Both the position numbers and the translations under genes were made by a program. Source: Bacteroidota bacterium (GTDB taxonomy: Bacteria; Bacteroidota; Bacteroidia; Chitinophagales; Saprospiraceae). Taken from it: 35,132 bases of DNA. Numbering within the stretch: the first letter of the stretch is position 1; the number at the start of each line of letters is the position of its first letter. The stretch spans positions 1 through 35,132 of the forward strand of contig JAKOXM010000087.1 in assembly GCA_029781095.1 (NCBI GenBank). Direction: 5' to 3'. Below, piece by piece: positions 2,346 through 2,464 of this stretch. Below the pieces are notes generated by a model. The model was not told the origin of the DNA, made no database searches, and worked only from the letters and a program-made list of their open reading frames with translations.

Positions 2346-2381
2346 AAAAACCCCGGCCAGTTTGCACACTTGCCGGGGTTT
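2346..2381 (-). terminator. intrinsic terminator / ileS attenuator hairpin
   Basis: Perfect 10-bp stem AAACCCCGGC (2381-2372) and GCCGGGGTTT (2357-2348) with a 14-base loop, followed on the minus strand by a T run (2350-2346) and a second T6 tract at 2338-2333. The T tract exists only in the minus orientation, so it stops leftward transcription. It sits between the Ile-rich leader frame and ileS, and may also end read-through from the protease gene at 2578. A small CTGTT/AACAG hairpin (2397-2382) lies directly upstream of its 5' arm. Confidence 0.75.
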
Positions 2382-2407
2382 CTGTTACTCCAAACAGCCT
2401 TACCGCG

Positions 2408-2464
2408 TCAGGTGTGCACACCGGGACGAATAATAATGCTGATGGATATAATTGGATGTAACAT
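2408..2464 (-). CDS. Ile-rich leader peptide of ileS (18 aa)
   Basis: A short frame of 18 sense codons and TGA, reading M-L-H-P-I-I-S-I-S-I-I-I-R-P-G-V-H-T. Six of 18 residues are isoleucine, encoded by ATT, ATA, ATC and a run of three ATT. It starts 5 bases after a consensus -7 box, so the mRNA may be leaderless, and it ends about 27 bases before the 5' arm of a strong terminator that precedes ileS. This is the layout of a translation-dependent attenuator: with little charged tRNA-Ile the ribosome would stall on the Ile run and change folding downstream. The last codons (2424-2412) can pair with the terminator loop (2369-2357) over 12 of 13 positions, one of them a G-U. The coding sequence is seen; the function is inferred from position and composition. 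Confidence 0.65.
   Translation of the reverse strand: MLHPIISISIIIRPGVHT

Follow-up and report, generated by a model that had tools for sequence, protein, structure and literature searches.

How is expression of ileS, the gene for isoleucyl-tRNA synthetase, controlled in the member of the Saprospiraceae from which the window derives (by the window we mean the whole 35,132-nt stretch of DNA that was analyzed)? A preliminary description had placed an isoleucine leader peptide and an attenuator in front of this gene. Inspection of the sequence gives the order, on the minus strand, of a promoter box, a short open reading frame (ORF), a small hairpin and a terminator stem with a T tract, with ileS following, and the features on which our analysis bears are these:

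2477-2470, minus strand: putative promoter box TATCTTTG, of the TAnnTTTG type of Bacteroidota (from the sequence)
2464-2408, minus strand: predicted leader ORF MLHPIISISIIIRPGVHT with its stop, 18 codons plus TGA (from the sequence and 27 homologous ORFs)
2452-2450, 2449-2447 and 2443-2441, minus strand: three further Ile codons in the leader
2437-2429, minus strand: putative control codons, three consecutive ATT (Ile); an Ile run of at least three is present in 27/27 elements
2418-2402, minus strand: predicted antiterminator 5' strand, TGCACACC-TGA-CGCGGT, across the stop codon (from the duplex with 2379-2363 and pair counts in alignment A2)
2397-2382, minus strand: small hairpin CTGTT/AACAG, the predicted tip of the antiterminator hairpin (from folds of the nascent RNA)
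2379-2363, minus strand: predicted antiterminator 3' strand ACCCCGGCAAGTGTGCA, which is the terminator 5' arm plus loop (from the duplex, pair counts and folds)
2381-2348, minus strand: predicted intrinsic terminator hairpin, arms 2381-2372 and 2357-2348, 10/10 pairs (from the sequence)
2350-2346, minus strand: terminator T tract, the first three T of which also take part in stem pairs (from the sequence)
2214-1, minus strand: ileS, isoleucyl-tRNA synthetase, 738 amino acids, truncated by the end of the window (TIGR00392)

Every part named in the preliminary description is present as stated. In particular, the 18-codon frame contains six Ile codons (in order, ATT, ATA, ATC, ATT, ATT and ATT) and begins five bases past the TATCTTTG box, a perfect 10-bp GC-rich hairpin with a T tract precedes ileS, and 2424-2412 can pair with 2369-2357 at 12 of 13 positions if one G-U pair is counted. 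What that description missed was a second register, 2418-2402 with 2379-2363, which crosses the stop codon, enters the 5' arm of the terminator and recurs in relatives. From the T tract to the start of ileS at 2214 there are 131 bases, and the ileS product scores 787.9 bits against TIGR00392, for which the cut-off is 621.4; the gene downstream thus acts in charging of the amino acid in which the leader is rich. The segment 2340-2464 has a folding energy z-score of -4.69, with 0/200 shuffles equally low. Upstream of the leader, and in the same direction as ileS, lies a gene for a trypsin-like peptidase (PF13365; 2578-3663, minus strand), the stop codon of which (2580-2578) is 113 nt ahead of the leader. 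Comparison of this region with its relatives makes it very probable, in our judgment, that ileS of the window is under the control of a ribosome-mediated transcription attenuator that would sense the charging of tRNA-Ile.

We also considered a T-box leader or another family represented in Rfam, and dropped both because every match fell below its gathering score. T-box models matched nowhere in the window at gathering scores, nor did they figure in the 11 matches obtained at up to E = 5 in 2200-2560; no Rfam family reached its gathering score for the leader element, in the window or in 2200-2560 searched to E = 5. The model RF00514 (His_leader) scored 22.8 bits (minus strand) and 23.7 bits (plus strand), against 49 required.

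The preliminary description had proposed that regions upstream of ileS be compared among related organisms. We searched for ileS in 60 genomes, 37 of them from the same genus (the window's own included) and 23 from other families of the order. A start of ileS was present in 33 of the 37 same-genus genomes (G001, G015, G027 and G033 were without one), and 25 of the 33 have a leader ahead of the gene. In one genome there are two copies of ileS, both preceded by a leader of their own (L003 and L086), and in G033 a leader lies on a contig in which ileS was not found, giving 27 elements in 26 genomes for the genus. No leader was found in the other eight genomes (G002, G004, G008, G011, G012, G019, G024 and G036), in which 1.2-2.1 kb upstream was scanned for Ile-rich ORFs and the whole genome was scanned for the pattern.

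The 27 leaders share a typical peptide, MFQxIISxSIIIRxxxHT. The stop is TGA after CC in 27/27, and between the Ile run and the stop there are exactly six codons in 27/27, while total leader length ranges from 17 to 20. Among 17 distinct N-terminal segments from 18-amino-acid leaders, aligned without gaps, the per-site rate of single-base codon changes was 0.225 for synonymous and 0.057 for non-synonymous ones, an excess of synonymous changes which indicates that the leader frame is selected as a frame. The Ile runs of the 27 elements use ATT for 77 of 85 codons; in the partial ileS of the window the counts are ATC 19, ATA 8 and ATT 2. The leader is accordingly a short ORF in which codons for the regulatory amino acid stand in a run, and it is predicted to be translated.

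Where the leader transcript might begin is suggested by the promoter box. In 26 of the 27 genus elements (shuffle mean 1.3) a TAnnTT[TC]G box is present within the 45 nt that precede the leader start, and in 25 of the 27 the gap between box and leader is 4-7 nt. In the window, TTTG at 2497-2494 is possibly, we presume, the -33 element. Transcription starts in Bacteroidota generally lie a few bases past the TAnnTTTG-type box. Since the start codon in the window is itself only 5 nt past the box, translation of the leader probably takes place on a transcript that is leaderless or nearly so; we infer that, if starts in Bacteroidota follow the box this closely, the leader transcript of the window begins at or beside the ATG.

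Downstream of the ORF, the 27 genus elements have a GC-rich hairpin that ends in a T-rich stretch. In an alignment of 25 of the 27, 96.0% of terminator cells are paired and 4 of 10 pairs show double changes; the T tracts are broken in several relatives (for example L012, L013 and L027). For the small hairpin, 72.6% of cells are paired, with a double change in 1 of 5 pairs. A register similar to that of the window, in which the bases leading up to the stop, the stop itself and about six bases past it face the terminator 5' arm plus loop, was found in 25 of the 27 elements (L016 does not show it, and L023 does so weakly), and these 25 make up alignment A2. We adopted it in place of the earlier register, 2424-2412 with 2369-2357, because the half of the latter nearest the Ile codons is, by eye, not kept in L004. 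Examples of the adopted pairing, again by eye, are ATACC/GGTAT in L003, TTTACACC/GGTGTAAA in L011 and GCGCACC/GGTGCGC in L027. In the window, terminator and antiterminator share the strand 2379-2372, so that the two folds are exclusive.

Across A2, 90.0% of antiterminator cells are paired, versus 30.7-52.4% when the partner is slid by 1-3 columns. Four antiterminator pairs show double changes against a shuffle mean of 1.6, a value of four being reached in 7 of 500 shuffles; further antiterminator pair types in A2 were unremarkable (77/500 shuffles). All four double-change pairs sit in the loop half of the duplex (helix 1). The half that invades the terminator 5' arm (helix 2) is 91.2% paired, has double changes in 0 of 5 pairs and is nearly invariant, so that covariation cannot test helix 2. 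For 19 distinct elements, a leader tail and its own arm gave a mean of -18.0 kcal/mol versus -16.4 kcal/mol for permuted partners, with 1 of 20,000 permutations as low. For L008, L012 and L018, the tail pairing was no better than that of dinucleotide-shuffled tails, and coding also constrains part of the tail. As to mutual exclusion of the two folds, which the preliminary description had left unproven, the register that reaches through the 5' arm now points to it, but covariation confined to the arm is weak.

Folds computed for 26 elements (L023 left out) suggest how a ribosome on the leader might choose between the two structures. In these calculations the A site was placed on the first or last Ile codon of the run, or at the stop, and the ribosome was assumed to cover 9 nt past the A-site codon. 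When the ribosome was placed on Ile, RNA made before the terminator 3' arm folded into the antiterminator in 25 of 26 elements, with some 10 or more expected pairs and a total of -14.9 to -32.3 kcal/mol; L016 formed only four to five antiterminator pairs in the stalled state. With the ribosome at the stop codon, the tail was hidden, the antiterminator formed in 0 of 26, and other structure amounted to at most -10.6 kcal/mol. The models thus suggest that a stalled ribosome would free the antiterminator and that one at the stop codon would hide it. Once the 3' arm exists, the terminator fold is the more stable in 24 of 26 elements, so the choice of fold must be kinetic. Known attenuators likewise switch kinetically. 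Because the fold of the free window RNA contains the terminator, an untranslated leader would also be expected to terminate.

From the parts, their conservation, the two exclusive folds, the covariation in the loop half and the fixed spacing, we infer where transcription would start, that it would terminate, in what order the folds would compete and how the switch would respond to charging. Transcription would start at or beside the leader ATG, and a ribosome would load on the 5' end of the transcript and trail RNA polymerase. With Ile-tRNA plentiful, the ribosome would reach the TGA and cover 2418-2402, the terminator would form, and transcription would halt near 2346. With Ile-tRNA short, the ribosome would wait on the ATT run with its front edge just before 2418, leaving 2418-2402 free to pair with 2379-2363 before the terminator 3' arm is made. 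The resulting long antiterminator hairpin, tipped by 2397-2382, would allow transcription to continue into ileS. The recurrence of frame, terminator and antiterminator before ileS throughout much of the genus lends support to the proposal of the preliminary description that a synthetase gene is here controlled by ribosome-mediated attenuation.

A search of the family covered 248 genomes from 112 genera, and 77 genus representatives were taken among the matches listed, excluding six genera already known as positive; two of the 77 (L258 and L270) are cut by contig ends. In this census we required an ORF 9-40 codons long in which some stretch of nine residues had five or more of a single amino acid, followed within 110 nt by an intrinsic terminator, the terminator after the ORF being a selection criterion. 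An Ile-rich ORF with a terminator was found before ileS in 31 of these 77 listed representatives, whereas in controls the other 19 amino acids together gave 2 matches (one Ser, one His) and the antisense strand gave one Ile match; in the remaining 46 of 77, the census test found no leader. The hairpin could in principle be a mere terminator of the upstream protease-like gene, which runs in the same direction and ends 113 nt ahead of the leader, and the ORF a chance frame; we give this scarcely any credence in view of the promoter box, the conserved frame and the fixed spacing, and of the 31 family matches as against 2 and 1 in the controls.

The family elements have peptides such as MKTFQHIIISIIITSLPCNLR and terminators such as AGCTCC...GGAGCT, with no obvious sequence likeness to the element of the window; in 24 of the 31, the predicted pairing extends to the stop codon or across it. 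Own tail and arm partners gave -16.0 kcal/mol versus -12.5 kcal/mol for permuted ones, with 0 of 20,000 permutations as low (31 elements), although the own partner was the single best of the 31 for 7 elements only and was worse than most for L264, L275 and L332. With the arm restricted to the 11 nt at the start of the stem, the values were -7.8 for own and -7.4 for permuted partners, and 1,153 of 20,000 permutations did as well. Stalled and stop states showed no difference in L275 and a smaller difference in L307 and L326. Given the weakness of the arm-only permutation and the lack of double changes in helix 2, the covariation rests on the loop half; the predicted antiterminator would be exclusive with the terminator, with covariation in its loop half and weak covariation for the arm half alone.

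These results bear on the alternative that the Ile-rich leader senses Ile-tRNA by a route that does not involve an antiterminator, such as Rho access, mRNA stability or arrest by the nascent peptide. The weak antiterminators of L008, L012, L018 and L275 and the weak covariation in the terminator arm alone would fit such a route, but it accounts poorly for the GC-rich hairpin and T-rich end that follow the ORF in the 27 genus elements and for the covariation of the antiterminator loop half across members of dissimilar sequence. In addition, the poor conservation from genus to genus of the peptide sequence on either side of the Ile run speaks against specific arrest. We regard this alternative as unlikely and favor attenuation through the antiterminator.

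Among 80 named ileS loci, Ile matches were found in 8, including Flavilitoribacter nigricans and an Aureispira metagenome-assembled genome, and all 8 belong to the Saprospirales by title or context; controls on the same 80 loci gave one Leu match (L104) and, on the antisense strand, two Phe and one Ile. In other families of the order, 0 of 22 genomes had an Ile leader before ileS, and no Ile leader was seen at the ileS loci examined outside the Saprospirales. The ileS attenuator thus appears, from sequence, to be a Saprospirales feature among the loci examined, with many losses or undetected copies (46/77). An order-wide search with the model R1 gave matches at E <= 0.5 in 120 of 396, many of the weak ones covering only the terminator part. 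Two contigs labeled Thermoanaerobaculia and Thalassobius (L089 and L137) carry a Bacteroidota-like ileS, with 82% and 60% identity to that of the window, and so are probably mis-binned.

A second TAnnTT[TC]G box occurs no more than 60 nt past the terminator in 8 of the 27 genus elements (shuffle mean 1.7) and in 18 of the 31 family elements (shuffle mean 2.1); many relatives therefore seem to keep a promoter below the switch. In the window, no such box was found within 60 nt of the terminator. These second boxes would also suit a different arrangement, in which the terminated RNA or the hydrophobic peptide acts in trans while ileS depends chiefly on another promoter for its expression, and there is a precedent in Sinorhizobium meliloti, for which the portion of the work drawn on here reports that the trp leader peptide works in trans (PMC7298713). 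The lack of a second box in the window weighs against such an arrangement, which moreover leaves the linkage to ileS and the Ile codons unexplained, and we judge it very unlikely. Attenuation in cis, by contrast, takes in both the linkage and the codons.

Leaders that appear to be of the same kind precede other genes. In the genome from which the window derives, the hisG leader (L237) is VNIISVIVRHHHHSLPGGKR followed by a stop, with a GTG start and four consecutive His codons; it begins five bases past TACTTTTG and has a terminator and a similar tail/arm pairing. Leaders of hisG with four His are also present in two relatives (L235 and L236). All three adjoin a TAnnTTTG-type box and have a terminator, and so share the kind of attenuator, here for histidine. 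Upstream of ilvD, Ile/Val-rich leaders with terminators were found in G401 (L200), G128 (L180) and G101 (L186), the peptides being MPNLTNIIAIIIIVVSPPG in L200 and MRFEFVIIVVVIIISTQKG in L180, which comes from another family of the order (ilvD was identified by profile match in G128 and G401 and by eye in G101). The window's genome, G005 and G035 have ilvD without a leader. Four genomes that are 98-100% complete (G007, G009, G021 and G022) gave no match to ilvD (PF00920) and keep the ileS attenuator; the lack of an ilvD match suggests isoleucine auxotrophy.

We also scanned about 400-450 nt upstream of those copies of valS, leuS, metG, thrS, serS, proS, glyS and pheS that our searches located in the window's genome and three same-genus genomes, using a light test and naming genes by their start sequence. 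Starts were mis-set or not placed in some of the scanned copies (for example L225-L227, L229, L230, L240, L250 and L256), and thrS of the window's genome was detected at most as a fragment (L253) that falls outside the scan. Terminator-like hairpins were found before one valS (L215) and, in weak form, before one metG (L228), and neither was accompanied by an ORF with many codons for the cognate amino acid; no terminator was called in the remaining scanned synthetase upstream regions.

More than 800 nt separates leader and ileS in 8 of the 26 ileS-linked elements. A gene or more than 800 nt intervenes in L004, L006, L007, L010, L013, L014, L022 and L052 within the genus and in L198, L199 and L203 from other genera. 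The inserts examined comprise a YhcG/DUF1016 nuclease (L013), a Mrr-type restriction enzyme (L010), and Uma2 and DUF5615 genes (L198); that of L007 belongs to no known Pfam family. In L198 (G256) and L178 the attenuator appears to have been duplicated: the ileS leader model gives two matches some 0.8 kb from each other, and a Uma2 gene lies between them. It is possible, if doubtful at present, that a general circuit operates in the Saprospirales, in which the last codons of a leader and its stop form the antiterminator strand; such a circuit would begin on a leaderless mRNA in some genera and would run ileS, his and ilvD by tRNA charging, and at ileS it would have become a place where restriction-type and PIN-like genes dock between attenuator and synthetase and thereby fall under the control of isoleucine starvation.

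Attenuation of synthetase genes is known elsewhere, and the comparisons that follow concern the parts of each published source drawn on here. In Escherichia coli, the pheST leader peptide (pheM) is Phe-rich. The pheST synthetase operon is controlled by attenuation, and a second promoter has been proposed just above pheS, below the attenuated one (PMC4082710). The likeness to pheST extends from attenuation of synthetase genes to the promoter that many of the relatives studied here seem to keep below the switch. Unlike pheST, which responds to Phe in Gammaproteobacteria, the ileS element would sense Ile in Bacteroidota. In the ileS element, the start codon is 5 nt past the box and the predicted antiterminator strand crosses the stop. 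Classical attenuators with leader peptide, antiterminator and terminator, as here, have been predicted before leuS and trpS of Streptomyces, in one or two species each (PMC1262725), and differ from the present element in amino acid and phylum.

The T-box reads tRNA directly, without translation. T-boxes acting on translation occur before ileS of Actinobacteria, where the gene and the signal, charging of tRNA-Ile, are the same (PMC1262725); unlike those leaders, the window has no T-box match. In S. meliloti, the ATG of the trpL leader peptide is the 5' end of the transcript (PMC7298713), and the start codon of the ileS leader would similarly lie at or near the transcript 5' end, although trpL concerns Trp and a biosynthesis operon in Alphaproteobacteria. 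Within the phylum, leader-peptide attenuation has been reported for amino-acid biosynthesis operons of Flavobacterium psychrophilum, by the same mechanism as proposed here; in the part of that study drawn on here, synthetase mRNAs (alaS is named, ileS is not) figure only as having structured 5' UTRs (PMC9723704). In Bacteroides thetaiotaomicron, some long 5' UTRs hold short ORFs reminiscent of leader peptides (PMC7366714). A paper that we take to be that of Naville and Gautheret (PMC2965389) has zero occurrences of Bacteroid- or ileS in its main text, the section considered. Our literature search found no leader-peptide attenuator for ileS or for a synthetase gene of Bacteroidota, though Lopatovskaya 2010 and Vitreschak 2004 could contain one. 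The preliminary description knew of no such case in Bacteroidota; this holds for synthetase genes as far as our search reached, but not for the phylum as a whole, given the biosynthesis operons of F. psychrophilum (PMC9723704).

The class of system is classical; what appears to be new is the host group, the gene that would be controlled, and a near-leaderless layout that straddles the stop. As judged by our literature search, this would be the first leader-peptide attenuator described for a synthetase gene of Bacteroidota, its function being predicted from sequence. Its presence in at least some three dozen genera provides a natural alignment in which sequence has drifted and geometry has been kept, and a clear copy (L097) in a named strain, F. 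nigricans DSM 23189, makes the claim directly testable. The element would offer a defined case in which a ribosome is coupled to RNA polymerase on an mRNA that seems to be leaderless.
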